This document shows positions 16,010-43,168 of a stretch of DNA of 64,000 nucleotides, piece by piece (the stretch's first letter is position 1; each line of letters starts with the position of its first letter). A program made the translations under genes and the position numbers. Source of the stretch: Henckelia pumila. Taxonomy: Eukaryota; Streptophyta; Magnoliopsida; Lamiales; Gesneriaceae. The stretch covers positions 12,800,201 to 12,864,200 of the forward strand of contig NC_133122.1 of assembly GCF_033568475.1 (NCBI RefSeq). The letters are read 5' to 3'. The notes beneath the pieces are model-generated. The model was not told the DNA's origin and searched no databases. It saw nothing but the letters and a program-made list of their open reading frames with translations.

Positions 16010-16010
16010 G

Positions 16011-16022: not shown

Positions 16023-16140
16023 CAGGTTGCTCAGATCAATCGATTGAATAATCAATTGTACAAAATTTTTGAGTCTCGGTTTTTGAAACAAAATAAATAT
16101 TTTTAATAAAAAAAATTTTTTTTTTCCGGGGGGCGAAACC

Positions 16141-19891: not shown

Positions 19892-21918
19892 ACAACGTCC
19901 ACACTAAAGCAGTGGACAAAACACCATACGAGTTATGGAATGGCAAAGCTCCTAAGTATTCGTACTTGAGGATTTGGGGATGTCCTGCTTACGTGAAGCG
20001 GACAGTGGGAGATAAGTTGGATAGTCGATCCAGCTTGTGTTATTTTGTGGGGTATCCGAAGAATTCAATCGGATATTATTTCTATTATCCTGCTGAAACA
20101 AAGGTGTTTGTTTCACGGAATGCCACCTTCTTGGAGAAGGAGTTCTTATTGGATAAGAAAGGCGAGATGATGGAACTCGAAGAAGTTCGAGAAGAACCCG
20201 AAATACAAAATAACGATCCCACACCTCAGGAACCATTGCTGGACACGCCTGCACCTAGAAGATCCGAGAGGACTTCTAGACCTCCAGTTCGATATGGTCT
20301 TCTTCTTGAAGAGGGTCAAGATGAACCCGACATTGGATGTGATCCAAGAAGCTTCAAGGAAGCAATTTCTGATGCGGATTCGAATTTATGGCTTGAAGCT
20401 ATGCAGTCAGAATTGGATTCGATGCATACTAACCAAGTCTGGACTTTAGTGGATCCTCCCGATGGAATTGTTCCAATAGGGTGTAAATGGATCTACAAAA
20501 GAAAGCTTGGGCCTGATGGTAAGGTATTGACCTACAAGGCGCGATTGGTGGCTAAAGGTTATACTCAAAGGCAAGGAGTTGACTATGACGAAACCTTTTC
20601 ACCAGTTGCAATGTTCAAGTCCATAAGAATCCTTATTGCCATAGCTGCATGGTATGACTATGAGATATGGCAAATGGATGTGAAGACTGCTTTTCTTAAT
20701 GGAGACATTAAGGAAGAAATCTATATGAAGCAGCCTGAGGGGTACACATCCATGGGAAGCGAGCATAAGGTATGCAAGCTTCAGAGATCAATTTATGGTC
20801 TAAAACAAGCATCAAGAAGTTGGAACCAGAAATTTGATGAAACAATTAAAGACTTTGGTTTCATCAAGAACCCGGAGGAACCTTGCGTGTACAAGAAAGT
20901 AGTTAAGGATGCGGTGACATTCTTAGTACTTTATGTTGATGACATCCTACTCATTGGGAATGATGTAGGGATGTTGCAGTCAACAAAGATATGGTTATCA
21001 GGTAGATTTTCGATGAAGGATTTGGGTGAGGCATCCTACATTCTTGGGATACAGATCTATAGGGATAGATCTAAGAGAATGATAGGACTCACTCAATCAA
21101 CCTACATCGATACCATATTGAAACGGTTTTCAATGGATGGGTCCAAGAGAGGACATCTACCCATGTGTCATGGAGTTTCTCTATCCAAGTCTATGTGTCC
21201 CAAGACTGATGCAGAGATAGAGAATATGACACATGTACCATATGCGTCAGCTATAGGTAGTATCATGTATGGGATGATATCTACCAGACCGGATGTAGCA
21301 TTTGCTCTGAGTGTCACGAGCAGATATCAGTCTAATCCTGGTCAGATACATTGGAAAGCCGTGAAGGACATTCTTAAGTACTTGCGAAGGACTAAGAATA
21401 TGTTCATGGTTTATGGAGGACGAGAACTCAAACTGGAAGGCTATACCGACTCTAGCTTCCAAAGTGATGTGGATGACTCGAAGTCAACCTCTGGATTTGT
21501 GTTCATGCTCAATGGTGGTGCTGTCTCTTGGAAGAGTTCCAAGCAGGACACCACAGCGGATTCCACCACTGAGGCTGAATACATTGCAGCATCAGCTGCT
21601 GCTAAAGAGGCCGTTTGGATGAGGAATTTCGTCCAAGAGTTGGGCGTCATTCCTGAATTTGTTGGTCCAGTCCCGGTGTACTGCGACAACACGGGTGCCG
21701 TTGCTCAAGCAAAGGAACCAAGGTCTCATCAAAGATCCAAACACGTACTGAGGAAATACCACATAATCCGGGAGATTGTGGAAAGAGGAGACATCAGTGT
21801 CGAACGAGTGGCCTCTGCAGACAATATCGCTGATCCACTTACTAAGCCTTTGCCAGGACCATTGTTTGACAAACATCGCGAAGCAATGGGTCTACATAGT
21901 ATGACTAGTTGGCTATAG
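19882..21918 (+). CDS. Copia G integrase end, reverse transcriptase and RNase H
   Basis: Continues the polyprotein after the single-base shift; the true junction is near 19855 and the ATG at 19882 is only the first in this frame. It contains the end of integrase (YLRIWGCPAYVK), the RT start GCKWIYKRKLGPDGK, DVKTAFLNGD, catalytic YVDDILLIGND (about 20928), the GIQIYRDRSKR block, and RNase H with TTEAEYIAAS (about 21565) and YCDNTGAVAQAK. It ends at a TAG, 14 bases before the 3' LTR. No internal stop is present in 678 codons. It would copy the RNA genome to DNA and degrade the RNA template. Confidence 0.95.
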   Translation: MLLNNVHTKAVDKTPYELWNGKAPKYSYLRIWGCPAYVKRTVGDKLDSRSSLCYFVGYPKNSIGYYFYYPAETKVFVSRNATFLEKEFLLDKKGEMMELEEVREEPEIQNNDPTPQEPLLDTPAPRRSERTSRPPVRYGLLLEEGQDEPDIGCDPRSFKEAISDADSNLWLEAMQSELDSMHTNQVWTLVDPPDGIVPIGCKWIYKRKLGPDGKVLTYKARLVAKGYTQRQGVDYDETFSPVAMFKSIRILIAIAAWYDYEIWQMDVKTAFLNGDIKEEIYMKQPEGYTSMGSEHKVCKLQRSIYGLKQASRSWNQKFDETIKDFGFIKNPEEPCVYKKVVKDAVTFLVLYVDDILLIGNDVGMLQSTKIWLSGRFSMKDLGEASYILGIQIYRDRSKRMIGLTQSTYIDTILKRFSMDGSKRGHLPMCHGVSLSKSMCPKTDAEIENMTHVPYASAIGSIMYGMISTRPDVAFALSVTSRYQSNPGQIHWKAVKDILKYLRRTKNMFMVYGGRELKLEGYTDSSFQSDVDDSKSTSGFVFMLNGGAVSWKSSKQDTTADSTTEAEYIAASAAAKEAVWMRNFVQELGVIPEFVGPVPVYCDNTGAVAQAKEPRSHQRSKHVLRKYHIIREIVERGDISVERVASADNIADPLTKPLPGPLFDKHREAMGLHSMTSWL

Positions 21919-21932
21919 GGCAAGTGGGAGAT
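21919..21932 (+). other. Polypurine tract of Copia G
   Basis: GGCAAGTGGGAGAT directly before the 3' LTR; primes plus-strand synthesis. Confidence 0.85.
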
Positions 21933-23797
21933 TGTAAGAGTGGGTGCCCAGTGAGCCAACTGTGTGGCTATGGGCTTTGTTGACTCTTTGTATAAACAAT
22001 CTTTTGTTTAATATTATTTACACTTTTATGGCAATGACTTTATATTACTTCATATTGTTATATTGTGATATACTATTGTTGTTTTGATAAAGACCTTGAA
22101 TATACTATAGTGTATGTAAGATGTGGTAGAACATGGAGATGTCTATCATGAAATACATCTTATAGTCACTGTATATTCTAAAACCGTTCCTAGTCGATTG
22201 AGCCGTCCGATAATAAGGATAAGGATCGCTCGAGTTTGAGACTAGCATTTGCGATGCGGAGTACCACGTTTCATTGGTAGGGAACATGGAGATGTTCGAA
22301 GCATGCAAATGGATATTCATAGGATGAATAGTCGAACTACCCTATCCGGACTTTCCAAGTGGTTATCACTTATCGAGTGGATAAAGTCCGCGGTTTTGGT
22401 TGTACACCATTAGTCCTTACGACTTGAAACATCATGGAGACTCTATATGCTAGTACTGTGCTTTGACTCGTTTACCGACTCTGAGGGGGTCATCAGGTGT
22501 CGAGATTGGGTACAGTTACGACACATATAGGAGTCAATGCATTGTTGTCAAGGATTCACCACATACTTGCGAGTGTGGATATCCTATGCGATCTGAGGAG
22601 ATATTAGTGTGACAAATCTCTGGCCAGAGTACTTGATGTGATTTAAGAAATGGTTTCTTAGTAGCACATGCGATGTCACTAATTTGATCTTCAAGATGCA
22701 TTGCATAGTTATCGAATCTTGAGCGACTCTCGATATACCAATGGTTGTTGATTCGATCGGGATATATGGATGAAGGGACCGTACTGTACGCTAACCAAAA
22801 TCTACTGGTTCTTGTAGGCACTATCAGTGATACCTAGGGAATCATGGGGCGATGTTGCTAGGCGCTTTACCATGATTCGTTGGGCAAGTCGGAAAGTGTT
22901 GTTCCGAGTCACAAGGAGTTGTGAGCCCACGGCTAGCTGTATCCCTGAACCATTGAGGGTCACACAGTGTAATGGAGTTTTAATCCCCGTTGAGATAGTT
23001 AAATTTAAAGAGTTAAATTTAATGAACTAAGGAGTTGGACTTCTTAAATAAGAGTAAGGGAGTAGGATTTCCTAAAATGACATAGGGATGGACATTTTTG
23101 GAAACCACTGAATTCGGATTCAGGAAAATTTATTTTGACTTTAAAACGTGCAGAAATGGTTTCTGTGCACATTGGTGAAATCGTTTCATCAATCGGAGTC
23201 ACGATGAATTTTATATTAATTTCTGAACGAGTGGGCTTTGCTTGTCGGGCCCCAGCTTATGACTAATGGGCCCTAAGGTGTTAGTGGCCTGCATTATAAA
23301 TAAGTTATTTCAGTACAGAAATTACACACGACAGGTCATTATTTTGAGAGCAATTTTCGAAAACCCTACCCTCTCTCTCAAACATATTTCGGCCGCCCCC
23401 TCCTTGCTCTGCCCGAGAGAAATTCCGGTCTGTGATTTTGAATCGCAGTAAGGAATAACGAATCAAATTCGTGTATTCTCTTCGCAGAAAACTTCTGATA
23501 GATTTTCTAGTGCAATCTATCAGAGGGATTAAACCTCTGTTCGTGGACCTGATTGAAGGCGTTCATCGGTTCCAGGGAGAGACAACAAGAGCAGAATTGT
23601 TCTGTTGGTGTCCATTAATCTCGTTGCGAGATTTGAGGTAAAATTTATTTAATTGTTATTTAAATTTTACACACACGTAATTCAATCGATGTATGGTTGA
23701 TACCCACACCATGGAAACGTTCCATGAAAAATTTTTAAACTTCCGCTGCACCGGGTATCAATCGTAATTGGTCTGGGAACTCGCCAGTTTTCCAACA
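21933..23797 (+). repeat. 3' LTR of Copia G
   Basis: 1865 bp, almost identical to 14147-16009, ending TTTTCCAACA before the ATTGA duplication. Confidence 0.96.
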
Positions 23798-23860
23798 ATT
23801 GACATTCAAGGAGACAAGCACCCACCAACTTTACTATTTCACATTTAATGAGCCTTGGAC
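23798..23860 (+). repeat. 5' LTR of Athila F, segment 2
   Basis: Short stretch of F LTR between G and E, equal to the 3' LTR near 41088-41152. It ends with TGGAC, the duplicated target of E. Confidence 0.93.
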
Positions 23861-23927
23861 TGTAGTAGCCCGTGCCCTAATTGAGTAATTAAAGGATTAA
23901 TGCTAATTAATTGAATTAGGTATCGGA

Positions 23928-24180
23928 CGGATCGGAAGCTCCGAAGGCACGATCGGAAGCTCCGAACAGGATCGGAAGCTCCGATGAGCGATCGGAGGCA
24001 CCGATGTTATTACGTTAGGCATGACGTGTGGTTGGATCGGAAGCTCCGATCAGGACCGAAAGCTCCGATCACCCCTATCCGAAGTCAACAAATGATATTT
24101 TGACACGTGGCAGATAAGGATCTTCGGAAGCTCCGATGGCAGGATCGGACGTTCCGATCGAGGATCGGAGGCTCCGATCG
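23928..24180 (+). repeat. Nine-copy ATCGGA-nnn-TCCGAT array in U3 of Gypsy E
   Basis: Units near 23930, 23950, 23969, 23988, 24033, 24053, 24122, 24143 and 24163 each carry two inverted 6-bp half sites around 3-4 bases, commonly AGC. The last unit is about 10 bp before the TATA box. The same array is in the 3' LTR (about 29866-30115). It may be a set of promoter-proximal protein-binding sites. Confidence 0.85.
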
Positions 24181-24185
24181 TTGTC

Positions 24186-24193
24186 TATAAATA
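24186..24193 (+). promoter_or_regulatory. TATA box of Gypsy E 5' LTR
   Basis: TATAAATA immediately after the repeat array; the 3' LTR copy is at 30122-30129. Confidence 0.75.
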
Positions 24194-25183
24194 GAAGGCC
24201 GAGGCTTCATTTCTCTTTGCCAATTCCGAGTTCTCCTTTCCTTTCTAGTCCTTTTGGAGCTGTTCTAGTCTTCTTAGGCTTGGTCCGGAGGTCGGCGAGG
24301 CGTTCGGTAGTCGTAGCGGAGTTGTGCCCAAGTTCTGGAGGCATCGACATCAAAGGGCTAACGACGGACGAAGGTATAGCTTTTGCTTCCTATAAATATT
24401 TAGGAGTATGCAATAGCTTAGTTAAGGCTTTTAGAGCACTTTAATGATAGTAGTATCATTTGGCAGTGTAGAGCAGACTATAGGCGTGGACCTAGAGTTG
24501 GTAGAGCTTGCACTGTTTTGAGGTACGGAAGTACTGTTCGAGATATCCTGACTGAGTATGCATGTATTATGTGACTGCATGATTTATATGCCATGATATT
24601 ATGCTGCATTCATTTGCATCTTGCTGTATCTCCTTCGAGATGTGTGTAGTAGGGTTGTACCCTATCCTGTTAGTGGATGGACTTCCATCGATTTGGGTCC
24701 GGCGTATCCACGATTATCTCGGTATGGGAGCCACCTCCTGAAGCGACGGCACAGCGTGCTACATACCAGGGCCCGGTCTGTCTCTGTTATCTGATCCTTG
24801 ACCTCGAGTCTATAGGGAGTTCACTTTGCATGCATGTATACTCATACTCTCGCACTGAGCATTTTATGCTCACGTCTCGTACTCTGTATTTTCTGGACAC
24901 CCTATTCCATGGGGCAGGTTTGCGATTGGACGAGGAGGGTGGATCCAGGAGGGGCTAGTCAGTGGTTGGCCAGCTGGAGCTTCGTCTAGGTTTTATTACT
25001 GTTGTTTGGGTTTATACAGCTATTCGATTTGGTTGTATAATATTGGATAATTACAGATTCCTTTACTTGGGATTGTATAATGTTATTGGTTTCCACAGTT
25101 TTATTCTGATATCTGTTTTATTAAGTTAATTGCATGCCTAAGTTCTGTTTAGTAGGTGATCCGGGTAAGGGTCACTACATTTA

Positions 25184-25195
25184 TGGTATCAGAGC
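25184..25195 (+). other. Primer binding site of Gypsy E
   Basis: TGGTATCAGAGC, four bases after the LTR, complementary to the initiator tRNA-Met 3' end. Confidence 0.93.
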
Positions 25196-25244
25196 ATGCA
25201 AAAGATTTCTTGGGATTTAGTCTCATCTTGAGGTATTTTTGTAG

Positions 25245-28200
25245 ATGTCAAATCGTGACGACCAGAGTTCTCATGGCAGTGTTGGTGGGCGTTGGGGTGA
25301 TGCCGACCTGGAGCCTCGTCGAGATCGGCGTCATCGTCACCATGACGACGAGCGTTTCACTGTGCGTCGATTCTTAGCTATGGGTCCTAAGCCCCTAGTT
25401 GGAGGTGAGTCTCCGGAGGATGCGGAGAACTGGTTAGACCGCATGGAGACGACTTTTCAGACTTTCCAATGCACCGAGGAGCAGAAGGTGGAGACCCTTG
25501 GCTATCTTCTGGATGGGCGTGCGCGCAGGTGGTGGAGGTTTACTTCTGCACTTTTTGTTGCTGCGAGAGGAGTGGCCACCTGGGCCGAGTTCCGCACAGC
25601 TTTCCAAAAGCGGTATTTTTACTCCTGCACTCCGTCAGTCGAAGGCAGGCGAGCTATTGAGTCTGCGACAGGGAGCCATGTCTATCGATGAGTATCAGCA
25701 GAGGTTCTTTGATCTGCTATCCTATTGCCCCGAGATTGCTGATAGCTCAGAGATGAAGTATAATCTGTTCCTTCAGGGCCTTAACCCTGAGATCCATGAC
25801 CGTGTGGCGGTTGGCGACGACATGTCCTACGAGGGTTTGGTGAGCCGTTGTCATCAGGCAGAGGACAGCATTCGGCGGAACAGGTCTTTTCCTCAGTCGA
25901 GGCCTGCTAGTTCTTTGGGTCCCCGTGCCCAAACTTTCAAGAAGTCTGGATCTTCTTCTTCCTCTGGTTCTGGAGGTATTGTCCGTTATGGTAAGAAGGA
26001 CAAGTGTGATCACTGTGGGAAGAACCATCCATCCGACAAGTGCCGCAGAGCTTCTGGAGCTTGTTTCCGTTGTGGAGAGACTGGTCATATCCGGAGGGAT
26101 TGTCCACAGTCTGGGGGAGGCGGTTCTGGATCTGGTTCAGGATCGGGTTCTCAGGCCACCGTTCAGCAGAGGTCGCAGGGACAGTCTGCTGGGAGTTCTC
26201 ATTTGAGGCCACGAGCTTCTGGCCAGGTGTTTGCCCTAAGACATGATCAGGCTGTGGAGGAGAATGAGAAAGTCATCGCAGGTACATTTATGCTTTATGG
26301 TATACCTGCTCTTGTACTTATTGACACTGGTGCATCTCATTCCTTCATTTCTGCACGTTTTGTTAAGAGGCATAAGTTACCATGCATTGCACTAGACGTA
26401 GTAATGTCTGTTTCTACTCCGACGGGCCAATCTGCTTTGGCCAAGCGTCTAGTGATGGGTTGCCCTTTAGAGTTCGAAGGGAACATTCTGTTAGCGAATC
26501 TCATGGTCCTGGCGATGGACGACTTTGATTGCATTCTGGGAATAGATGTGCTGACTACCTATCGAGCTTCAGTGGACTGCTATCAGAAATTAGTACGCTT
26601 TCATCCGGAAGGGAGTGAGAGTTGGTTTTTCTATGGTGAGGGAGCGCGACCCCCGATGCCTTTGGTATCAGCTTTGAGAGCCTGTCGAGCTCTGGAGTCT
26701 AGCGGGGAAGGCTACCTTATCTATGCAGTTGATTTGTCCGCTGAGAGTATTGGGATAGAGAGCATTCCTGTTGTGGATGAATTTCCAGATGTGTTTCCTG
26801 ATGAGATTCCGGGTTTTCCTCCTGCTAGGGAAGTCGAGTTTGGCATAGAGTTGATGCCGGGTACTTCGCCTATTTCTAGAGCACCGTATCGTTTGGCTCC
26901 GTCAGAGATGCGTGAGTTGAAGAATCAGCTACAGGATCTTTTGGACAAGGGGTACATTCGTCCTAGTGTATCTCCTTGGCTAGCTCCTGTTCTCTTCGTG
27001 AAGAAGAAGGATGGGTCGATGCGGCTGTGCATTGACTATCGGCAGCTGAACCGAGTCACTGTGAAGAACAAGTATCCGTTGCCTCGTATTGATGACTTGT
27101 TCGATCAGCTGCATGGCACGTCAGTTTACTCCAAGATTGACTTGAGATCTGGGTATCATTAGTTGAGAGTCCGTGATCAGGACGTAGCCAAGACTGCATT
27201 CCGTACTCGCTATGGGCATTACGAGTTCCTAGTGATGCCATTTGGTTTGACTAATGCGCCGGCTATATTCATGGATTTGATGAACCGCGTCTTCAGGGAG
27301 TATTTGGACAAGTTTGTCGTGGTCTTCATTGACGACATCTTGGTGTATTCGCGTAATACGGAAGAGCATGTTTCTCACTTGCGGTTGGTACTGCAGACTC
27401 TTCGAGATGAGTAGTTGTACGCCAAGCTGAGCAAGTGTGAGTTCTGGATGGATAGAGTGGTCTTTCTTGGCCATATCATATTCAGGAAGGGAATTTCTGT
27501 TGATCCAAGCAAGATTGAAGCGGTACTTAATTGGTCGCGTCCGACGACAGTTGCTGAGATCCGTAGTTTTCTGGGTCTAGCAGGGTATTATCGTCGCTTC
27601 ATTCTGAACTTCTCTCAGTTAGCTCGACCGTTGATGCAGCTTACCCGCAAGGGTGTGGATTTCGAGTGGTCCTCCGAGTGCAAGGAGAATTTCCGTGAGC
27701 TTCGACGGCGGTTGACTTCTGCGCCGGTGTTGGCATTACCGTCAGGATCTGGAGGGTATGTAGTTTACACGGATGCTTCTCTTCAGGGGTTAGGTTGTGT
27801 CCTGACTCAGAATGGGCATGTGATCGCATACGCTTCTAGACAGCTGAAGCTTCACGAGGACAACTACCCAGTCCATGATTTGGAATTGGCAGCCATTGTG
27901 TTCGCTTTGAAGATCTGGCGTCATTATCTTTATGGCGAGAAATTTGAGATCTTCACCGACCATAAGAGTCTCAAGTATTTGTTCACTCAGGCAGAATTGA
28001 ACATGAGACAGAGACGTTGGATGGACTTGCTTAAGGACTATGATTGCGAGATTAAGTACCATCCGAGAGCTGCTAATCTCACCGCTGATGCTTTGAGTCG
28101 CAAGGTGCGACTATCCGCACTTCAGACTTGTTCGATGTCTAGTGCGATCAGTGACTGTTGTACTTCAGGTTTTACCTTCAAGCATAAGAAAGGTATGCAG

Positions 28201-29661
28201 AGTATCCAGATGTTTGCGATACTATCTGAGCCAGCTTTGTACTCGCGGATCCGAGATGCTCAGATGTCTGATTCAAAGACCCAGCGTTTAGCTCGTCTAG
28301 CTAACGAGGGTAGCTCGTCTGGATTTCATTATCAGTCAGATGGCTTTCTGTGTTTGTCTGGTAGGCTTGTGATTCCACAGGATGAAGAGTTGCGAGAGGA
28401 GATTTTGTCTCAGGCACATCGCACTAAGTTGAGTATTCATCCTGGGAGCAACAAGATGTACAATGATCTACGTACTCGTTTCTGGTGGAAGGGAATGAAA
28501 CGCAGTGTTTATCAGTTTGTTTCGAGATGCTTGGTGTGTCAACAGGTCAAGGCAGAGCACCGACGACCTGGAGGATTGCTTCACAGTCTGCCTATTCCTG
28601 AATGGAAATGGGAGTTTATCACTATGGACTTTGTGACCTATTTGCCGGTATCCCCGAAGAACTATGATGCTATCTGGGTGGTGGTGGACCGACTCACCAA
28701 GTCAGCGCATTTCATTGCCTATAGCCGAGAGTACTCTGTGGATCGCATGGCACGGATGTACATTCAGGAGATCGTCCGACTTCATGGAGTGCCTGTGAGC
28801 ATTGTCAGCGATCGGGACCCCAGGTTTACTTCTAGATTCTGGGGGAGTGTTCAGCGTGCGATGGGTACTACTCTCAGTTTGAGTACAACCTATCATCCGG
28901 AGACTGATGGTCAGTCAGAGCGCACTATCCGTACGTTAGAGGATATGCTTAGAGCGTGCGTCATGGATTTTGGTTCAGCCTTGCAGGATCATTTGCCGTT
29001 GATCGAGTTCGCTTACAACAACAGCTATCACACTAGTATTGGGATGGCACCTTTTGAAGCGTTGTATGGGCGACATTGTCGTACTCCACTCTTCTAGAAA
29101 GAAGTGGGGGAGAGATAGGCTGAAGGACCGGAGTTTATCCAGCAGGCGATAGACATTGTTGATCAGATCAAGAAACGGATTAAGACTGCACAGGATCGTC
29201 AGGCCAGCTATGTTAATATCAAGCATAGGCCCTTGCAGTTCGAGGTCGGGGAGAAAGTTTTTCTGAGAGTGTCACCTTTCCGCAAGATTCTCAGATTTGG
29301 CCTTAAGGGCAAGTTGTCTCCCAGATTTATCGGTCCGTTTGAGATCTTGGAGAGCATTGGCGATTTGGCTTATCGACTAGCTTTGCCACCGCATCTATCC
29401 AGTATTCACGACGTGTTCCACGTATCTCTGTTGAGAAGGTATGTGGCGGATGAATCTCATATTCTGCAGTGGTCTGAGGTTCAGGTAGACAAGGATTTGA
29501 CTTATGTTGAGAAACCTCTTCGTATCCTGGATTATAAGGATAAGGTTTTACGGAACAAAGTCATTCCTTTGGTTTTAGTTCAGTGGCAGCGCCGAGGCAC
29601 TGAGGAAGCTACTTGGGAGCTTGAGGACAGGATGCGTAAAGACCATCCTGAGTTGTTTTGA
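25245..29661 (+). pseudogene. Gypsy E gag-pol with chromodomain, inactivated
   Basis: Gag starts at ATG 25245. An extra T in the run near 25616 shifts the frame. The rest reads through a zinc knuckle ([14 protein letters not shown], about 26062), protease ([12 protein letters not shown], about 26315), RT (LCIDYRQLN near 27027; [11 protein letters not shown] near 27320), RNase H ([10 protein letters not shown] near 27768), the integrase zinc domain and core ([12 protein letters not shown] near 28807; [10 protein letters not shown] near 28894) and a C-terminal chromodomain ([20 protein letters not shown], about 29574). TAG stops lie at 27160, 27412, 29095 and 29116. Family comparison suggests Q, Q, W and Q at these positions. 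The chromodomain normally steers integration to heterochromatin. Confidence 0.93.
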
Positions 29662-29783
29662 TTTCATTCTTTAAGTTGTATTCAGTTGCAAACTCTGTAA
29701 ACGTTTCATTGAATAAAGAATGTTTCTGATTTCTGTATTTTGCATTCGGTACTTAAGATCTGTTTTCGAGGACGAAATATCTT

Positions 29784-29796
29784 AAGTGGGGGAGAA
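29784..29796 (+). other. Polypurine tract of Gypsy E
   Basis: AAGTGGGGGAGAA directly before the 3' LTR. Confidence 0.85.
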
Positions 29797-31115
29797 TGTA
29801 GTAGCCCGTGCCCTAATTGAGTAATTAAAGGATTAATGCTAATTAATTGAATTAGGTATCGGACGGATCGGAAGCTCCGAAGGCACGATCGGAAGCTCCG
29901 AACAGGATCGGAAGCTCCGATGAGCGATCGGAGGCACCGATGTTATTACGTCAGGCATGACGTGTGATTGGATCGGAAGCTCCGATCAGGACCGGAAGCT
30001 CCGATCACCCCTATCCGAAGTCAACAAATGATATTTTGACACGTGGCAGATAAGGATCTTCGGAAGCTCCGATGGCAGGATCGGACGTTCCGATCGAGGA
30101 TCGGAGGCTCCGATCGTTGTCTATAAATAGAAGGCCGAGGCTTCATTTCTCTTTGCCAATTCCGAGTTCTCCTTTCCTTTCCAGTCCTTTTGGAGCTGTT
30201 CTAGTCTTTTTAGGCTTGGTCCGGAGGTCGGCGAGGCGTTCAGTAGTCGTAGCGGAGTTGTGCCCAAGTTCTGGAGGCATCGACATCAAAGGGCTAACGA
30301 CGGACGAAGGTATAGCTTTTGCTTCCTATAAATATTTAGGAGTATGCAATAGCTTAGTTAAGGCTTTTAGAGCACTTTAATGATAGTAGTATCATTTGGC
30401 AGTGTAGAGCAGACTATAGGCGTGGACCTAGAGTTGGTAGAGCTTGCACTGTTTTGAGGTACGGAAGTACTGTTCGAGATATCCTGACTGAGTATGCATG
30501 TATTATGTGACTGCATGATTTATATGCCATGATATTATGCTGCATTCATTTGCATCTTGCTGTATCTCCTTCGAGATGTCTGTAGTAGGGTTGTACCCTA
30601 TCCTGTTAGTGGATGGACTTCCATCGATTTGGGTCCGGCGTATCCACGATTATCTCGGTATGGGAGCCACCTCCTGAAGCGACGGCACAGCGTGCTACAT
30701 ACCAGGGCCCGGTCTGTCTCTGTTATCTGATCCTTGACCTCGAGTCTATAGGGAGTTCACTTTGCATGCATGTATACTCATACTCTCGCACTGAGCGTTT
30801 TATGCTCACGTCTCGTACTCTGTATTTTCTGGACACCCTATTCCATGGGGCAGGTTTGCGATTGGACGAGGAGGGTGGATCCAGGAGGGGCTAGTCAGTG
30901 GTTGGCCAGCTGGAGCTTCGTCTAGGTTTTATTACTGTTGTTTGGGTTTATACAGCTATTCGATTTGGTTGTATAATATTGGATAATTACAGATTCCTTT
31001 ACTTGGGATTGTATAATGTTATTGGTTTCCGCAGTTTTATTCTGATATCTGTTTTATTAAGTTAATTGCATGCCTAAGTTCTGTTTAGTAGGTGATCCGG
31101 GTAAGGGTCACTACA
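29797..31115 (+). repeat. 3' LTR of Gypsy E
   Basis: Same length and nearly the same sequence as 23861-25179, including the ATCGGA array and TATA box. Confidence 0.96.
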
Positions 31116-31138
31116 TGGACTCTTGCTCTCATTTGGCC

Positions 31139-31146
31139 TATAAATA
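31139..31146 (+). promoter_or_regulatory. TATA box of Athila F 5' LTR
   Basis: TATAAATA, now only about 24 bp downstream of the right end of inserted Gypsy E. Any F promoter elements upstream are separated from it by G and E. The 3' LTR keeps an uninterrupted copy at 41171-41178. Confidence 0.7.
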
Positions 31147-31636
31147 GATGTGTTGTATAAGCTTTGTAGTGTGCAAGAGTGTAGAGAATTCTTCATTTGT
31201 AAAATAAATATTGTGTGTGTGAGAATAAAAGTTTGAATGTGCAAGTTTCTCAAGTTCAAGTATGAAATTTCTTTTATCTTTATTCTTGAGTTTCATGTTC
31301 ATGGAAAGCTAAATCTATTTATGTCAAGGTGAAAAGGTTTCATTGTTGGTCAAGTAAGATTGTTTATATTTTGTATATTCTTTTCTTTTCTATTTTTATT
31401 TTTACTAATTGATCTTTATTTGTAGGTATAATTTTGGATGATTTGTTGTTATCTATTTACATCAAATGCTTGGTACCTTGAATGTGGTTACCTTGATTTG
31501 TTGTCAAATATGATACAATAAAGACTACAATAATTATATACTATAAATATATGTATCTATTTATAATAAAGTCATATATATTATTTAGACGATAGCGTGA
31601 CACTGTCGGTTGTTCTAAATAATATATTGTGATTTG

Positions 31637-31796
31637 AACTAACATTTACTTTCTCGCATCTAACTTTTACTTTATCGCAACTAACATTTACTTTTCCGCA
31701 ACTAACATTTACTTTCTCGCATCTAACTTTTACTTTATCGCAACTAACATTTACTTTTCCGCAACTAACATTTACTTTCTCGCATCTAACATAAAG
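31637..31796 (+). repeat. 21-bp tandem array in Athila F LTR
   Basis: Seven units of the CTAACATTTACTTT... type, in three alternating versions ending CTCGCAT, ATCGCAA or TCCGCAA, so the higher-order period is 63 bp. It is flanked by two diverged copies of a segment containing GACGATAGCGTG and CGGTTGTTCTAAAT. The 3' LTR has the same array at about 41669-41822. Confidence 0.9.
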
Positions 31797-32260
31797 TCAT
31801 ATATTTTATTTTGACGATAGCGTGGCTCTGCCGGTTGTTCTAAATGAAATATTGTGATTTGATCTAACATTTACTTTTATGTCAATTTATATTTATGCAT
31901 TTATATATATATTATGGGTACCATGTATTAAATATCGACTGATATTAATATAGTGGGAACTATATTATATGATATACTTGTTTAAATATTTCATTGTTCT
32001 TTTATGTTTATTCTTATTTTAGTTTCTTTTATTTATTTTTATTAAACAATCTTAAATAAACCAACAATGAACCTTTGAAACCTTGACAATTTTATAATTT
32101 GTGTATTTGAAGTTTTATAATAATATTTTCATCTATAATATATTATTGCTAAAATTAAACTTACAACATCCTCTCCGTGGATCGATCTCGTACTCACGAG
32201 TATATTACTTGCAGACAACCTACACTTGGGTGAATTACAATTTAAGTTGTAGCAAGTTTT

Positions 32261-32278
32261 TGGCGCCGTTGCCGGGGA
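32261..32278 (+). other. Primer binding site of Athila F (tRNA-Asp)
   Basis: TGGCGCCGTTGCCGGGGA matches the complement of the plant tRNA-Asp 3' end, the primer typical of Athila and related Gypsy elements. Confidence 0.9.
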
Positions 32279-32397
32279 GGTATAAATTAAGTTTAATTTT
32301 GTTATTATGTAAATAGTATGTTGTTTTTAATTGTATGATTGTTTGGAGTCGTAAACAAAGTGGTAGACTTGTTCGAGTAACTGAAAATATTTTAAAC

Positions 32398-33740
32398 ATG
32401 GACGATAATTCTAATAATCAAGATGATAATAATAATAATAATCATCATCAAGAACATGAACAACCAAGAACACTTAGGCACCATATGAATCCAATAAGAA
32501 CTAGTACACCATCTTGTTTAGTTTTTCCTCCTGATGTATCTAATTTCAATTTTAAGCCACAAGTCATTCAACTTTTACCAAATTTTCATGGCTTAGATTC
32601 TGAAAATCCATATTTGCATTTAAGAGAATTTGAGGAGGTTTGCAACACTTATAATGATCAAAATTGTAGCATGGATACTGTTCGATTAAAGCTTTTCCCT
32701 TTTTCCTTAAAAGATAAAGCTAAAACATGGTTGCAAAATTTGAGATCAAGTTCAATAAGATCATGGGAAGAAATGCAACAATAATTTCTAAAAAAGTTTT
32801 TTCCTTCCCATAGAACAAACTCTTTTAAAAGACAAATTACAACTTTTTCTCAAAACAAGGGGAAACATTTTATCAATGTTGGGATAGATATAAAGAGTTA
32901 CTTAATACATGCCCACATCATGGTTTTGAAATATGGAGAATAGTTTCTCACTTTTATGAAGGTTTAATACCTAAAGATAGGCAAATGATAGAATTCATGT
33001 GTAATGAAACTTTTGAAGATAAAAACCCAAATGAAGCTATGGAATATTTGGAGTCATTAGTAGAAAATGCTCAAAATTGGGATAATATAGGCTCAATTGA
33101 ACCACCAAGTAAAACCAATAATTCAACAAATGGGGGTGGTATTTATCATCTTAAAGATGATGTAGATGTTCAAGCTAAACTTGCATCTTTAGCAAGAAAA
33201 ATCGAGTCATTAGAAATGAAAAAGAGTGATCAATTAAAAAGTGTTCAAGAAATTGTTTGTCATATATGTGACACACATGATCATCTTACAAAAAATTGTC
33301 CTACTTTGCCTTCATTTAAAGAATGTCTCCATGAACAAGCCAATTATGTTAACAATTTTAAAAAACCAACATTAGATCCTTTTTCACAAACATACAATCC
33401 TGGTTGGAGAAATCATCCCAATTTTAGTTGGAGGAACGATAATAATGCACAACCTTCACAACAACCTTTTCAAAATAACAAAAATCATCAAGGTTATGCT
33501 CCTTATATCCCACCTCCAAGAAAAAATTTTGAAGATGAAATTCATGCATACATTCAAAAGCAAGAGTCTATCAATATTCAAAACATTCAATCTATGAATG
33601 ATTTGAAAGAAACTCTTGCAAAATTTGCATCTGCACTTAATATTCATGAAAAAGGAAAATTTCCATCTCAACCACAACCTAATCCTAAAAATCAAAATCA
33701 AGAAAAATTTGATCAAGTAAAATCTGTTATTACTCTTAGA
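32398..33740 (+). pseudogene. Athila F gag, broken
   Basis: It starts MDDNSNNQDD at 32398. The upstream in-frame ATG at 32335 is less likely, being close to the primer site. A TAA at 32782-32784 interrupts after SWEEMQQ, and a small indel near 32863 shifts the frame. The correct frame is open again from before 32985 and includes the FYEGLIPKDRQM and EAMEYLESLVENAQNWD blocks. A CCHC knuckle (CHICDTHDHLTKNC) lies at about 33259. The boundary with pol is approximate. Gag would form the particle that packages element RNA; this copy cannot make it whole. Confidence 0.85.
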
Positions 33741-36700
33741 AGTGGTAAAATAGTTAATGATCCATATAGTGATGAAAACAAAGATCAGTCAAACTCAAAG
33801 AGTAAGGATGAAAATCTTGATACTTTCGAGAAAGATGATACTTTGAGTCCTAAGATTAAGAAAGTTGATGATAAATTATCTGAAATAATATGTGAGTCAA
33901 ATAAACATGTTCCTTTCCCTCATGCATTAGTTAATAATAAAAAACAAAAAAATGATTCTGATATTTATGAAGTTTTTAAACAAGTAAAAATAAATATTCC
34001 ATTATTAGATGCTATTAAACAAGTGCCTTCTTATGCAAAGTTTTTAAAAGATTTATGTACTGTAAAAAGACAATTGCATGTAAAGAAGAAAGCATTCTTA
34101 ACGGAGCAAGTAAGTTCTATTATTCAAAATAATTCTACCTTGAAATATAAAGATCCCGGTTGTCCAACAATTTCATGTATTATTGGAAAGAATAAAATTA
34201 AAAAAGCTTTGTTAGATTTGGGAGCAAGTGTGAATTTAATTCCTTATTCAGTTTATGAAAAGCTTAAGTTGGGAGATTTAAAACCTACATCTGTTACTCT
34301 TTTACTAGCCGATAGGTCGATCAAAATACCTAGAGGTATCTTAGAAGATGTGTTAGTTCAAGTCGATAAATTCATATATCCTGTGGATTTTATTGTCTTG
34401 GATACACAACCAATAGAAGTACATAACGAAATTCCAGTAATATTGGGACGTCCATTTCTAGCAACTTCAAATGCTTTAATTAATTGTCGAAATGGAATAA
34501 TGAAATTGTCTTTTGGAAATATGACTTTAGAACTTAATGTGATCAATTTATGTAAACAACCAAGTATTAATGAAGATGAAGATGATAATGAAATAGAAAC
34601 AATTGTGGAAGAAAATATACACCAAGAAAATTTAAATCAACAATCTGAAGTTTGTTTAGTGGAAAGTTTTGATTCAAAAAATGTTTTTAAATCAAAGTTA
34701 TTTGAAGAAATTAATGAACTTGAAGAAGTAAAAGAAAATAATCATCCAAAACTTGAATTAAAACCCTTGCCAATAGAACTAAAATATGCTTTTCTTGGTG
34801 AAAATCAAACATATCCTATTGTAATATCTTCTACCCTCTTACCAAAACAAGAAGAAGATGTAATAACACTACTTAAAAAACACAAAAATGCAATTGGATG
34901 GACTTTGCAAGATATAAAAGGTATAAATCCTTTAATCTGCACACATAGAATTCACTTGGAAGAAAATGCTAAAACGTATCAACAACCACAAAGAAGATTA
35001 AATCCACACATGAAAGAAGTTGTTAAAAATGAAGTTTTAAAACTATTAGATGCCGGAATTATTTATCCAATCTCGGATAGTAAATGGGTAAGTCCAACAC
35101 AAGTAGTACCAAAAAAATCAGGCATCACTGTTATAAAAAATGAAAAGGGAGAATTATTACAAGCTAGGATTCCATCTAGTTGGCGTATGTGCATTGATTA
35201 TAGAAAATTAAATGATGCAACTAGAAAAGATCACTTTCCGTTACCATTTTTAGATCAAATTTTAGAGAAAGTGGCAGGTAATCCTTATTATTGTTTTCTT
35301 GATGGGTATTCGGGGTATTATCAAATACCAATATCATTAGAAGATCAAGAAAAAACTACTTTCACTTGTCCGTTCGGAACTTTTGCTTTTAAAAGAATGA
35401 CATTTGGTTTATGTAATGCCCCGGCTACTTTTCAAAGATGCATGCTAAGTATTTTTAGTGACATGATTGAAGAATTTGTGGAAGTTTTTATGGATGATAT
35501 AACTGTTTTTGGAAACTCATTTGAAAACTGTCTTAAAAATTTGGAAGAAGTTTTAAAAAGATGTGAAGAAAAAAATCTTGTTTTAAATTGGGAAAAATGT
35601 CACTACATGGTTAAATCCGGAATTGTGTTAGGGCATGTCATATCTGAAAAAGGAATTGAAGTTGATAAAGCTAAGGTTGATGTTATTGCTAATTTACCAT
35701 CACCAAACACGATCAAAGAAATTCGATCATTTTTGGGTCATGCGGGATTTTATAGAAGATTTATAAAAAAATTTAGCATAATATCGAAACCAATTTCAAA
35801 TCTTTTAACAAAAGATGCACAATTTGAATGGACTCAAGAATGTGAAACTGCTTTTAAAAAGATAATTAATCTTTTAACTACATCACCTATTTTACAACCT
35901 CCTGATTGGTCTTTACCATTTGAATTAATGTGTGATGCAAGTGATTATGTTGTAGGAACTGTGTTAGGACAAAGAAAAGAAGGTAAACCTTATGTGATCT
36001 ATTATGCAAGTAGAACCTTAAATAGTGATCAAATCAATTATTCAACAACTGAAAAAGAATTACTTTCAGTAGTGTTTGCATTAGATAAATTTCGATCCTA
36101 TTTAATTGGTTCTACTACTATTGTTTACACTGATCATTCTGCCATAAAATATTTATCAAATAAACAAGATGCTAAGCCGAGATTAATAAGATGGATTTTG
36201 TTGTTACAAGAATTTGATCTTGTAATAAAAGATAAAAAAGGAAAAGAAAATGTAGTAGCCGATCATTTATCAAGAATAATTTTTGAATCATCTCAAAATG
36301 AAATACCAATAAATGAAAATTTTCCGGATGATCAACTATTTTATGCTACTACTATGCCTTGGTTTGCTAATATTGTAAATTTTCTTGTGACAAATAAAAT
36401 GCCTTCTCATTGAAGTTCACAAGATAAAAATAAATTCTTGAAAGAGGTCAAAAAATTTTATTGGGATGATCCTTATTTGTTTAAGTATTGTCCTGATCAA
36501 ATTTTTCGACAATGCATACCCGACAATGAGGTAAGTAGTGTCATTAAATTTTGTCATTCTGAGGCATGTGGAGGTCATTTTTCGTCAAAGAAAACAGCTG
36601 CAAAAATCTTTCAATGTGGATTTTATTGGCCTTCTTTATTCAAAGATACACATTCATTTTGCAAATCTTGTGAAAATTGTCAGAAAATGGGTTCAATTTC

Positions 36701-37643
36701 AAAACGAAACATGATGCCTTTAAATCCAATCATGATTATTGAAATATTTGACAGTTGGGGAATAGATTTTATGGGTCCATTTCCATTATCTTTTGGATTC
36801 ACTTATATTTTAGTAGCTGTCGATTATGTTTCAAAATGGATTGAAGCAATTGCATGTAGAACTAATGATCATAAAGTTGTGATAAAATTTTTGAAAGAAA
36901 ATATTTTTAGTCGATTTGGAATACCTAGAGCTATAATAAGTGATGAGGGAAGTCATTTTATAAATAAATCATTTTCTTCGTTGTTAAGAAAATATGGTAT
37001 TACACATAAAGTTTCTACTCCATATCACCCTCAAACGAATGGTCAGGTTGAACTTGCAAATAAAGAAATAAAACAAATTTTGGAAAAAACAGTCAATCCA
37101 AATCGAAAAGATTGGTCTTTAAGATTAAGTGATGCATTATGGGCATATAGAACTGCATTTAAAACATCATTGGGGATGTCACCATATAGATTAGTTTTTG
37201 GAAAGCATTGTCATTTACCTGTTGAAATTGAACATAAAGCTTATTGGGCAATTAAAGTGTTTAATACTAATTTAGATGATGCATCTAAATCAAGAAAATT
37301 GCAATTAAATGAACTAGAAGAATTAAGAAATGATGCATATGAAAATGCAAAGATTTATAAAGATAAAACAAAAGCATTTCATGATAAAAATATTATGAGA
37401 AAATCTTTTGAAATCGGACAAAAAATTTTACTTTATAATTCTCGCTTGCATTTGTTTCCAGGAAAACTTAGATCGCGATGGTCTGGACCATTTATTGTTA
37501 AATTTGTCTATCCTCATGGTGCTGTTGATGTTGAAAATCCTAAAAATAATAATGTATTTAAAGTTAATGGGCAAAGACTTAAACCGTTTATAGAAAATGA
37601 AGTTCTTAATGAAGAGTTTATGCCTTTATATGATCCAACTTAA
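33741..37643 (+). pseudogene. Athila F pol: protease, RT, RNase H, integrase
   Basis: One frame with a single in-frame TGA at 36411-36413. Protease has DLGASVNLIP (about 34217), with DLG in place of the usual DTG, as in Athila. RT has RMCIDYRKLND, FLDGYSGYYQI and the catalytic VFMDDITVFG (about 35485). RNase H has CDASDYVVG and YTDHSAIKYL. Integrase has an HHCC zinc region (HSEACGGHF...CKSCENCQ, about 36556-36690) and core motifs [17 protein letters not shown] and [17 protein letters not shown]. The TGA sits where Athila relatives usually have tryptophan, between RNase H and integrase. Apart from this stop the domain set is complete. Confidence 0.92.
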
Positions 37644-37789: not shown

Positions 37790-38230
37790 ATGGATGAAGC
37801 TATTAAAAAACTTGGTAAATATTTTCCATCTGTTTCTAAAAAAGTTCTGAGAATGATTTATGAAGGCAGATGTGAAAGATTGAGAATGCTTATGCAAAAA
37901 GGAATCCCGGAGGATATTCGTCTTATAATTGAAGCCAAGGTTCGATTAGGTGGTGAAGTTCCAAAATTCTTACTTGTTCGAAATATGTCTGGACTAGGAA
38001 AAAGTACCTATGCGAAGAAAAGAAGGGCTAAAAGGTTAGATGTTTGTCATAATTGTGCCAGATGGACTTGTAATAGACAATGCAGATCTTTGGGATATGT
38101 TTCCACAAATAGAGAAGATAAAATTGATTTCATTAAGAATGGGCTGAGTAAAGAGTCATTGGATGATATCTCATTGACTCTTGAGACGCATTCTATTGGA
38201 GATGTACAAGGTCAACTTCTCCGTTTATGA
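37790..38230 (+). CDS. Carlavirus-CRP-like basic cysteine-rich protein in Athila F
   Basis: A 146-residue open frame following an AT-rich stretch. The N-terminal half is predicted helical and charged. At residues 68-82 it has GLGKSTYAKKRRAKR, followed by C86-x2-C89-x4-C94-x3-C98 and a segment with IDFIKNGL. A basic STYA-(K/R)(K/R)RRAK stretch directly before clustered cysteines resembles the small nucleic-acid-binding cysteine-rich proteins of carlaviruses (Viral_NABP family), which act in silencing suppression and gene regulation. The cysteine spacing is shorter than I expect for that family, so homology is a hypothesis. It is not an Athila env. After the TGA the same frame continues 36 codons to a TAA at 38339. 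Confidence 0.6.
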   Translation: MDEAIKKLGKYFPSVSKKVLRMIYEGRCERLRMLMQKGIPEDIRLIIEAKVRLGGEVPKFLLVRNMSGLGKSTYAKKRRAKRLDVCHNCARWTCNRQCRSLGYVSTNREDKIDFIKNGLSKESLDDISLTLETHSIGDVQGQLLRL

Positions 38231-38531: not shown

Positions 38532-39170
38532 ATGACAGGATCTTCTTCACAAAAATTGAAAAATATTTGTGTCTTTTGTGGTTCTAATACTGGAAAGAAT
38601 GAAATATTTGTTGATGCAGCAATTAATCTTGGAAAAAAGTTAGCAGAGAGAAAAATTCACTTGGTTTACGGAGGAGGCAATATTGGGTTAATGGGATCTA
38701 TTTCAACAGCAGCTCATCTTGGAGGTAGTCAGGTTTTGGGTATTATTCCTACAGTTTTAGCTGAAGGAAATATTACAGGTGTTACGGTTGGGGAAGAGTT
38801 GAAAGTTTCATCAATGTACGAGAGAATAACTAAAATGATAGAAAATTCTGATGCTTTTATTGCCTTACCTGGTGGTTTTGGTACTTTAGAAGAAATTTTT
38901 CATGTTGTTTCTTGGGCACAACTTAATATCCATAATAAACCTGTTGGCTTGTTGAATATCAATAACTATTATGATGGTTTGTTGACTTTTCTCGATGTAG
39001 CCGTGGAACAAAATTTTATTTCAGAAAATTCACGAAGGATGCTCATCTCTGCTTCGAATGAAGACCAATTAATTGATAATCTCCAAGCTTTTGTTCATCA
39101 ACCTGATTCAGCTATAACAAAGATCAATTGGTCTCAACCAACCAGTAAGAAAAGAAAACTGGATCATTGA
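38532..39170 (+). CDS. LOG: LONELY GUY (LOG)-type cytokinin riboside 5'-monophosphate phosphoribohydrolase inside Athila F
   Basis: A 212-residue intact frame, close to the usual length of plant LOG proteins. LOG enzymes release active free-base cytokinin from its nucleotide in one step, in the cytosol and nucleus. The Rossmann-like fold begins at KNICVFCGSNTGK (10-22), followed by LVYGGGNIGLMG (44-55) and GIIP (70-73). The catalytic arginine is in MYERITKM (R98) and the phosphate-binding motif PGGFGTLEE is at 113-121; then SWAQLNIHNKPVGLLN. The C-terminal KKRK (206-209) resembles a nuclear signal. Plant LOG genes have several introns; this one has none. It lies between pol and the 3' LTR, in the same orientation, and is AT-rich like the rest of F. 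It is better preserved than gag or pol. Confidence 0.93.
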   Translation: MTGSSSQKLKNICVFCGSNTGKNEIFVDAAINLGKKLAERKIHLVYGGGNIGLMGSISTAAHLGGSQVLGIIPTVLAEGNITGVTVGEELKVSSMYERITKMIENSDAFIALPGGFGTLEEIFHVVSWAQLNIHNKPVGLLNINNYYDGLLTFLDVAVEQNFISENSRRMLISASNEDQLIDNLQAFVHQPDSAITKINWSQPTSKKRKLDH

Positions 39171-40586: not shown

Positions 40587-40596
40587 TTTGGGGGTG
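40587..40596 (+). other. Polypurine tract of Athila F
   Basis: TTTGGGGGTG directly before the 3' LTR; short and interrupted by pyrimidines, so weaker than those of the other elements. Confidence 0.6.
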
Positions 40597-42284
40597 TGAT
40601 GAAACTTAAAATTTGTAATTATTTATATGTTAAAAAGTGTGTTTTAAAATTTAAGTTTAATTAAAATTATGAAGTTGTATTATTTTAGTGTTATGTGTTT
40701 ATATTTAAATGTTTTACTAAAATGTTGTATTTTACGGTTTGCGCAGGTTTGGTAAAAATAAAATTACTCAAGCTACAGAAGTCATAATGGAGTAATCTCA
40801 AAACCCGTAGAATCACAAAAGAGGCATCTTCAACTTTGTAGAAGACAAGAAATTCCAAAAACTTCATTAAGATGATCAAAATAATCAAACATCAAAATGG
40901 AGATAGATTTACTTTTACTATGACCAGCTTGGAGTAAAAATATCATAAGTATTTCATATTTTATCCAAAAGGGGTGAATGAGTTGTCCAAACACATCTAC
41001 ACAAAATATCCTACGTGTTATATGTTGAAAAGAAAGGCTGAATCGGTGGTCTAAGGCATCAAACATGCCAATTAAAGTTGGGTCATGGTATTGACATTCA
41101 AGGAGACAAACACCCACCAACTTTACTATTTCACATTTAATGAGCCTTGGACTCTTGCTCTCATTTGGCCTATAAATAGATGTGTTGTATAAGCTTTGTA
41201 GTGTGCAAGAGTGTAGAAAATTCTTCATTTGTAAAATAAATATTGTGTGTGTGAGAATAAAAGTTTGAGTGTGCAAGTTTCTCAAGTTCAAGTATGAAAT
41301 TTCTTTTATCTTTATTCTTGAGTTTCATGTTCATGGAAAGCTAAATCTATTTATGTCAAGGTAAAAAGGTTTCATTGTTGGTCAAGTAAGATTGTTTATA
41401 TTTTGTATATTCTTTTCTTTTCTATTTTTATTTTTACTAATTGATCTTTATTTGTAGGTATAATTTTGGATGATTTGTTGTTATCTATTTACATCAAATG
41501 CTTGGTACCTTGAATGTGGTTACCTTGATTTGTTGTCAAATATGATACAATAAAGACTACAATAATTATATACTATAAATATATGTATCTATTTATAATA
41601 AAGTCATATATATTATTTAGACGATAGCGTGACACTGTCGGTTGTTCTAAATAATATATTGTGATTTGAACTAACATTTACTTTCTCGCATCTAACTTTT
41701 ACTTTATCGCAACTAACATTTACTTTTCCGCAACTAACATTTACTTTCTCGCATCTAACTTTTACTTTATCGCAACTAACATTTACTTTTCCGCAACTAA
41801 CATTTACTTTCTCGCATCTAACATAAAGTCATATATTTTATTTTGACGATAGCGTGGCTCTGCCGGTTGTTCTAAATGAAATATTGTGATTTGATCTAAC
41901 ATTTACTTTTATGTCAATTTATATTTATGCATTTATATATATTATGGGTACCATGTATTAAATATCGACTGATATTAATATAGTGGGAACTATATTATAT
42001 GATATACTTGTTTAAATATTTCATTGTTCTTTTATGTTTATTCTTATTTTAGTTTCTTTTATTTATTTTTATTAAACAATCTTAAATAAACCAACAATGA
42101 ACCTTTGAAACCTTGACAATTTTATAATTTGTGTATTTGAAGTTTTATAATAATATTTTCATCTATAATATATTATTGCTAAAATTAAACTTACAACATC
42201 CTCTCCGTGGATCGATCTCGTACTCACGAGTATATTACTTGCAGACAACCTACACTTGGGTGAATTACAATTTAAGTTGTAGCA
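40597..42284 (+). repeat. 3' LTR of Athila F
   Basis: Complete 1688-bp LTR, TGATGAAAC... to ...GTTGTAGCA, followed by the CTTTT duplication. It contains a TATA box (41171-41178) and the 21-bp array. It is uninterrupted, unlike the 5' copy. An open frame running from it into Copia A is a chance fusion. Confidence 0.96.
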
Positions 42285-43168
42285 CTTTTGTATTGGGAAT
42301 ACAAATCTATCGGGATAGATCGAAAAGATTGCTTGGTCTCACCCAGTCCACATACATTGATACCATCGTGAAGAGGTTCTCGATGGATGAGTCTAAAAGA
42401 GGACATCTACCAATGTGTCATGGCGTGTCTCTATCCAAGTCCATGTCTCCCAAAAATGATGCAGAGATAGAGACGATGACACGCATTCCATATGCATCTG
42501 CAATTGGTAGTATCATGTATGCGATGATATCTACACGTCCTGACGTGGCCTTTGCACTTAGTGTTACAAGTAGATATCAATCGAACCCTGGTCTTCCACA
42601 CTGGAAAGCTGTGAAAGACATTCTCAAGTATTTGAGAAAGACTAAGAATATGTTCTTGGTTTATGGGGGTGGAGAACTAAAATTGGAAGGCTATACCGAC
42701 TCTAGCTTCCAAAGCGATGTTGATGATTCGAAGTCAACTTCCGGTTTTATATTCATGCTCAATGGTGCTGCTGTTTGTTGGAAGAGTTCCAAGCAAAATA
42801 GCACTGCGGATTCAACCACTGAGGCAGAATATATTGCTGCATCCGATGCTGCAAAGGAAGCTGTTTGGATTAGGAATTTCGTCCAAGAGTTGGGCGTTAT
42901 TCCTAATGGAGTTGATCCAGTCCCAGTGTACTGCGACAACACTGGTGCAGTTGCTCAGGCAAAAGAACCAAGGTCTCATCAGAAATCCAAACATGTACTG
43001 AGAAAATACCACATCATCCGGGAAATTGTGGAACGAGGAGATGTCTTGTTAGACAGAGTCGCCTCCGCAGATAATGTTGCTGATCCACTAACTAAGCCTT
43101 TACCAGGACCTTTGTTCGAAAAGCATCGCGAATCAATGGGTTTGAAGAATATGGGTAGTTGGCTCTAG
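42285..43168 (+). pseudogene. Copia A reverse transcriptase end and RNase H, 3' part
   Basis: Resumes with VLGIQIYRDRSKR after the CTTTT duplication, continues with RNase H motifs (TTEAEYIAAS, YCDNTGAVAQAK, SKHVLRKYHIIRE) and ends at TAG in GSWL. It has no internal stop. The open frame extends upstream into the Athila LTR by chance; the real coding part begins at the insertion border. Confidence 0.93.

Follow-up and report, generated by a model that had tools for sequence, protein, structure and literature searches.

Plant LTR retrotransposons are usually thought to replicate with gag and pol alone. Athila elements reportedly hold extra open reading frames (ORFs) in their 3′ region, and Steinbauerova et al. 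are said to have described, in 2011, two Athila-like elements with similarity to LOGL4. A LOG (YgdH) domain has been reported in Gypsy consensus sequences of Citrus and Populus (PMC9289625), and section 12 of that account makes no mention of selection on LOG, of a C-terminal tail or of an NABP-like partner. The same paper describes a Phalaenopsis Gypsy element with an m6A demethylase, the activity of which was demonstrated in vitro (PMC9289625). The terms LOG, lonely guy and cytokinin are absent from the main text of a review of additional ORFs (PMC7264820). In the open-licence literature that we searched, outside which most subscription papers lie, we found nothing on an NABP-like partner, on the tail, on selection acting on LOG, on a separate rosid and asterid LOG clade or on LOG exchange between element subfamilies.

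Here we analyse a window of 64,000 nucleotides (the whole stretch of Henckelia pumila DNA that was examined), in which a LOG gene lies inside an Athila-like retrotransposon designated F. As in the Citrus and Populus cases, a LOG-domain ORF sits within a Gypsy element; as in Phalaenopsis, an LTR element acquired and retained a gene for a cellular enzyme, although enzyme, host and element differ. The initial annotation of this DNA overstated the novelty of a LOG gene in a retrotransposon, since Gypsy elements with a LOG domain have been published before (PMC9289625).

Architecture of element F

Element F is a Ty3/gypsy element, with reverse transcriptase, RNase H and integrase of gypsy type between its LTRs and a 5-bp duplication at its ends. 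F is labelled Athila-like on account of its primer-binding-site string, which would be of the Asp-tRNA type of Athila. The features, by position in the window, are as follows.

13644-13648, + strand: target-site duplication CTTTT, left copy
13649-14146, + strand: 5′ LTR of F, first piece, 498 bp (8 mismatches to 40597-41094)
14147-23797, no strand assigned: nested LTR element X1 within the 5′ LTR of F (LTR pair 14147-16009 and 21933-23797, 99.8%; duplication ATTGA)
23803-23860, + strand: 5′ LTR of F, middle piece, between the nested elements
23861-31115, no strand assigned: nested LTR element X2 within the 5′ LTR of F (LTRs about 23858-25180 and 29794-31116, 99.2%; duplication TGGAC)
31121-32254, + strand: 5′ LTR of F, last piece (3 mismatches and 2 gap positions against the 3′ LTR over 1139 columns)
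32261-32278, + strand: primer-binding-site string TGGCGCCGTTGCCGGGGA
32317-32781, + strand: 5′ part of gag, in a frame that differs from the remainder (Pfam Retrotrans_gag, 24.4 bits, cut-off 24.1)
32985-36413, + strand: part of gag, protease-like stretch, reverse transcriptase and RNase H, 1142 aa (Pfam RVT_1, RT_RNaseH)
36438-37643, + strand: integrase, 401 aa, with a stop between it and pol (Pfam rve, Integrase_H2C2)
37790-38230, + strand: NABP-like gene, 146 aa in the window copy, which ends early (Pfam Viral_NABP, Carla_C4)
38532-39170, + strand: LOG gene, 212 aa, tail KKRKLDH (ORF, profile matches, copy comparison)
40590-40596, + strand: polypurine-tract-like purine-rich run GGGGGTG, abutting the 3′ LTR
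40597-42284, + strand: 3′ LTR of F, 1688 bp, holding a 21-bp tandem array
42285-42289, + strand: target-site duplication CTTTT, right copy

The boundaries first proposed for F, a pair of LTRs and the CTTTT duplication, hold as described, with the addition that the 5′ LTR is split in three pieces because two LTR elements with their own duplications inserted in it. A deletion in this LTR was considered and discarded, the 53 bp that were first unexplained in the self-comparison being those between X1 and X2. The gag-pol region of F is indeed broken, as had also been proposed: gag changes frame, and a single stop separates the RNase H frame from that of integrase; the Asp_protease_2 match in 32985-36413 scored 23 bits, slightly below its cut-off of 24.3. 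Between integrase and LOG lies the ORF at 37790-38230, which the earlier finding did not include.

The LTR copies of F differ at 8 of 498, 1 of 55 and 3 of 1139 aligned columns, plus two gap positions, giving 12 differences over 1692 aligned sites and, at a substitution rate of 1.3e-8 per site and year, an age of roughly 0.3 million years. The divergence is uneven, with 8 mismatches in the 498-bp outer piece and 3 in 1139 columns of the inner one. Both LTRs contain the 21-bp tandem repeat array (31576-31834 and 41608-41866).

The LOG gene and its copies in the genome

The LOG ORF runs on the + strand from ATG to TGA over 212 open, intronless codons. ORF and profile matches agree with the initial annotation, which had placed an intact frame of this kind between pol and the 3′ LTR in element orientation, and the family assignment that it proposed to check was borne out by Pfam Lysine_decarbox (133.9 bits, cut-off 27) and NCBIfam TIGR00730 (177.6 bits, cut-off 96.35). 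Against NCBIfam's narrower equivalog NF058542 CtkRMPhLog, a model that may or may not suit plant LOGs, the protein reached 122.6 bits, below the cut-off of 300. An Arg and the motif PGGxGTxxE are LOG active-site residues; R98 and PGGFGTLEE were both found in the window protein, as claimed earlier, and all 79 copies compared from the same genome keep R98, while 78 of the 79 keep E121. The closest solved chain was Arabidopsis At2g37210 (PDB 2a33, 220 bits), presumably LOG3, in agreement with the matches from our search for relatives. The window LOG thus shares domain, length and active-site residues with plant LOG1/LOG3-type phosphoribohydrolases, and would be expected to cleave cytokinin nucleotides, but it differs from them in that it is intronless, belongs to a distinct clade, ends in a basic tail, and is mobile and multicopy.

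In the 884,658,702-base genome, LOG is present in at least 150 copies, whose proteins are 96-99% identical to the one encoded in the window. The search gave 466 candidates, of which 150 were scored, and 137 of these scored rows (window included) had no stop over the matched stretch; an internal stop was found in 9 of 106 copies. One identical LOG protein is encoded by 29 of 79 copies, and that of the window differs from this majority at two residues. Upstream of LOG, an NABP-like ORF of at least 97% identity was present in 48 of the 50 loci read, window included; of the remaining two, L037 has a diverged NABP-like part and L048 has none. Conversely, when every third of 150 ranked NABP-like loci was examined, 49 of these 50 were followed by a LOG match at the expected distance. 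We then probed ten other copies at their expected ends only, with 601 bases each and the interiors partly read. Perfect 5-bp target duplications flanked nine of them, all mutually different (CGGCA, AAAAC, CAGAG, CTTGC, AGCAT, ACTAG, CAACC, GGAGC and CCCCC); for the tenth copy, the match to the 3′ LTR ended inside the 601-base piece. These different duplications mark separate insertions, each of which carried LOG along. The search for further copies that the initial annotation had called for therefore upheld its claim, as many other copies hold LOG at the same position: LOG is a gene of the mobile unit and is mobilised with the element.

That LOG might simply be a host gene that happens to lie beside an LTR has practically no chance of being correct. 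We found no point in its favour, it is refuted by the repeated insertions of the LOG unit with its own target-site duplications, and eight intron-bearing host LOG loci, located with a last-exon query, lie elsewhere in the genome, in contrast to the intronless window gene. A 95-aa host-exon query gave only element-type matches, at 51-54% identity, among the 150 scored rows listed. Two of the host loci, L144 and L145, are LOG5-type genes on different chromosomes that gave the same tblastn exon translations, yet their 3.1-kb stretches are non-identical.

The NABP-like partner

Carlavirus cysteine-rich proteins (CRPs) have been reported as silencing suppressors, one of them being a transcription factor that induces hyperplasia (PMC12172455), and are described with a zinc finger of spacing C-X2-C-X12-C-X4-C and with KKRR or RRRR runs (PMC9559581). 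The window's NABP-like ORF scored above cut-off with both Viral_NABP (26.7 bits, cut-off 23) and Carla_C4 (22.8 bits, cut-off 20.9). At least 150 copies of this gene occur in the genome, most of the 150 scored rows being open for about 186 aa. Among the 120 relatives listed, out of 139 found, all named ones were plants (Xanthoceras, Orobanche, Rhamnella and Parasponia).

The resemblance to carlavirus CRP/NABP proteins consists of these profile matches and a KKRR-type basic run immediately before the first Cys pair; the differences are another zinc-finger spacing and the encoding by an LTR retrotransposon. The spacing is C-X2-C-X4-C-X3-C in 112 of the 120 relatives listed and the carlavirus spacing occurs in 0 of the 120, and we therefore named the gene NABP-like rather than filing it as a member of the carlavirus family. 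Somewhat short of an even chance, in our estimate, is that this is an unrelated basic zinc-finger protein of non-carlavirus descent that reached the Pfam cut-offs by convergence. The spacing counts are in keeping with such convergence, as are a search of viral_contigs that found no relative and a PDB search that gave no significant match; against it, the two Pfam models are each matched by 38 of 41 relatives, with best E values of 1.5e-8 and 2.3e-8, and carlavirus CRPs, too, are reported to have runs of the KKRR type (PMC9559581), like the one before the first Cys pair here. By analogy with those proteins, the NABP-like gene may oppose silencing.

Relatives, origin and C-terminal tail of element LOGs

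Among the 120 matches listed, the best of 7970 below threshold, were proteins of Xanthoceras, Reevesia, Diplodiscus, Pterospermum, Melia, Populus and Parasponia and of the asterids Primulina and Paulownia, and some clusters hold hundreds of members (327 in Pterospermum). Taxonomic records were consulted for Xanthoceras, Reevesia, Primulina and Parasponia; Diplodiscus, Pterospermum, Melia, Populus and Paulownia are placed by their usual classification. Linkage to an element is direct for one Xanthoceras protein (P0004), in which LOG is joined to 38 residues that share 55% identity with gag-pol of the window, and for the published Citrus and Populus cases, and is presumed for the others; P0005, examined likewise, had no gag-pol piece. 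Many relatives of both LOG and the NABP-like gene lie on contigs of 0.7-2 kb that resemble transcript assemblies, in which case both genes would be transcribed. LOG matches in viral contigs comprised 28 loci (L094-L121) with best segments 26-50% identical, and were set aside as not being these elements.

The phylogeny with host LOGs that had been proposed earlier placed the element LOGs in a clade of their own. Its 26 element-like rows formed one clade with support 98/94 (bootstrap not fully settled), beside all host rows, which include LOG1/3/4-, LOG5- and LOG8-type genes of H. pumila itself and a gymnosperm LOG. The remaining rows were 15 host matches, 7 own host sequences, 2 Arabidopsis and 2 bacterial; the root consists of two distant bacterial chains, the own-plant host rows are partial and the element set was chosen by similarity to the window protein. 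A FastTree run concurred with support of 0.997 on 117 of 121 element-like rows, chosen by length, and 32 host rows, taken by length and then every third. The Populus proteins share the clade with the window LOG. Related LOGs of rosids and asterids thus appear to form one clade outside the sampled host LOG types, of which the simplest reading would be one old capture of a cellular LOG. The intronless form together with the tree points to an old capture by reverse transcription, followed by long residence inside elements.

Basic tails can act as nuclear signals, and LxLxL is known as an EAR motif that recruits TOPLESS. Among the 120 element-like matches listed, 107 had a basic cluster (3 of 4 K/R) within the last 24 residues and 98 had LxLxL within the last 12, compared with 1 and 0, respectively, of 120 host LOG3-like sequences. 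The own-plant host loci whose last exon aligned to the end (L140-L142) lack the tail; in the other five the alignment ended before the C-terminus. The window's lineage has the basic part only: SKKRKLDH ends 77 of 79 copies, with one change each in the other two, and LxLxL is absent from all 79 copies whose tails were read. Judged by the motifs, the tails may serve as nuclear signals and, where LxLxL is present, in an EAR role.

These tails raise the question of whether the LOG fold was kept for a role other than cytokinin supply, either action in the nucleus on nucleotide monophosphates of another kind or, where LxLxL occurs, that of a TOPLESS-recruiting regulator that uses the tail. We consider this rather unlikely. 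The tail counts argue for it, as do the deeper branches of the element-like proteins (median tip depth 0.74 versus 0.22 for host proteins, the two sets having been picked by different queries), but PGGxGTxxE is retained in 108 of 120 element-like matches listed, exactly as in 108 of 120 host matches, shared variants among copies are mostly silent (see below), and LxLxL, on which the regulator version depends, is missing from the window's lineage.

The LOG gene also seems to have been swapped between element subfamilies, judging from three loci (L134, L136 and L137) in which the LOG DNA is 95-97% identical to the window's, the NABP-like gene is 70-74% identical over its aligned part and no spacer match to the window was detectable. 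In L132, L133, L135 and L138, LOG, NABP-like gene and spacer all match the window. Recombination among distantly related Athila elements has been reported (PMC2410132).

Selection on LOG

Our primary sample was every third of 150 loci ranked by the NABP-like gene, hence chosen regardless of LOG; 44 of the 50 were gap-free and 6 were dropped. Taking an opportunity of 4.3 nonsynonymous (N) to silent (S) changes, singletons (55 N, 8 S, 4 stops) gave a ratio of 1.6, variants in two or three copies (14 N, 9 S, 0 stops) 0.36, and those in four or more copies (3 N, 7 S, 0 stops) 0.10, the first and last classes differing with a Fisher p of 2.3e-4 when stops are counted with N. A larger set of 106 usable copies out of 122 (of 121 loci, 15 were gapped or truncated and were dropped, as was L193, which gave no match) gave 96 N, 24 S and 8 stops among singletons and 8 N, 14 S and 0 stops among variants in four or more copies (Fisher p = 4e-5). 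Its class of two or three copies (31 N, 6 S, 2 stops; ratio 1.23) looks neutral, which the deliberate choice of decayed copies may have caused. An earlier set of 79 copies, left from 93 loci after removal of 13 gapped or truncated ones and of one window duplicate, gave N:S:stop counts of 83:23:5 versus 5:11:0 (p = 2e-4). In 35 copies ranked by the spacer alone, the counts of 19:5:0 versus 2:3:0 were not significant (p = 0.11), and the same was true of the NABP-like gene, where the first 146 codons of 45 copies (6 loci dropped) gave 38 N, 16 S and 4 stops versus 4 N and 4 S (p = 0.23).

In 49 copies, shared variants amounted to 0.072 per S site and 0.006 per N site, and the spacer between the NABP-like gene and LOG had 0.049 per site (51 copies). 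Two further non-coding stretches had 0.016 (20 copies) and 0 (32 copies, 134 columns), and the latter speaks against a simple picture of selection. Single variants were more uniform, at 0.150 per S site, 0.113 per N site and 0.139 in the spacer. Few shared variants entered these counts, and classes of frequency were used in place of a copy tree. Pairwise dN/dS against the window ranged from 0.25 to 0.72 in seven diverged copies (7 of the 8 loci L132-L139), values that mix the phases of spread and decay.

Shared variants being mostly silent and private ones near neutral, LOG is under constraint during spread and decays once inserted; with private, post-insertion variants near 1, a plain average over copies would mislead. 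A dN/dS near 1 among copies had been named in the initial annotation as evidence against its view, and the shared variants gave a dN/dS-like value of about 0.1. As read from these variant classes, purifying selection keeps LOG while the elements multiply, with about neutral decay after each insertion, which suggests that the elements use the gene. That LOG is instead a recently captured passenger, its frame open merely because the copies are young, is accordingly very improbable, and the shared-variant tests led us to reject it. The 12 differences in 1692 LTR sites of F and the neutral look of private variants are what such a passenger would produce, but the shared variants are strongly biased towards silent changes in a sample that was not ranked by LOG, with the spacer undepleted, and the deep clade of rosids and asterids keeps the length of the protein and, in 98 of 120 matches listed, the whole tail.

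Discussion

Our preferred explanation, to which we assign a probability of roughly 0.55, is that LOG belongs to an Athila-like family as a permanent accessory gene, holding a fixed place behind the NABP-like gene and supplying cytokinin to the element's benefit. Under this explanation, a cellular LOG would have been captured long ago by reverse transcription and would have gained its new basic C-terminal tail inside the elements. Wherever the element is expressed, its LOG would release cytokinin bases from nucleotide precursors within the cell, perhaps within the nucleus; the additional active cytokinin would favour proliferating, meristem-like cells, and in these the element would have a better chance of being copied and of entering the next generation. 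At the same time, the NABP-like neighbour may blunt silencing, as carlavirus CRPs do. Both the enzyme activity and the gain for the element are predictions from sequence: selection indicates that the protein matters to the element, and cytokinin as the reason does not follow from selection.

A broader picture, which we offer only tentatively and think doubtful as a whole, is that of a eudicot retrotransposon lineage with a two-gene cassette, in which the NABP-like protein would weaken silencing, while a nucleus-directed LOG with a modified tail would raise cytokinin or consume another nucleotide signal. In lineages with LxLxL, it might also act through TOPLESS, and the LOG module would move between subfamilies of elements by recombination.

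Collectively, selection on a putative hormone-activating enzyme in a young and numerous family points to a benefit that an element can draw from altering the physiology of its host cell, and the function of the extra ORFs in such elements thereby becomes experimentally approachable.
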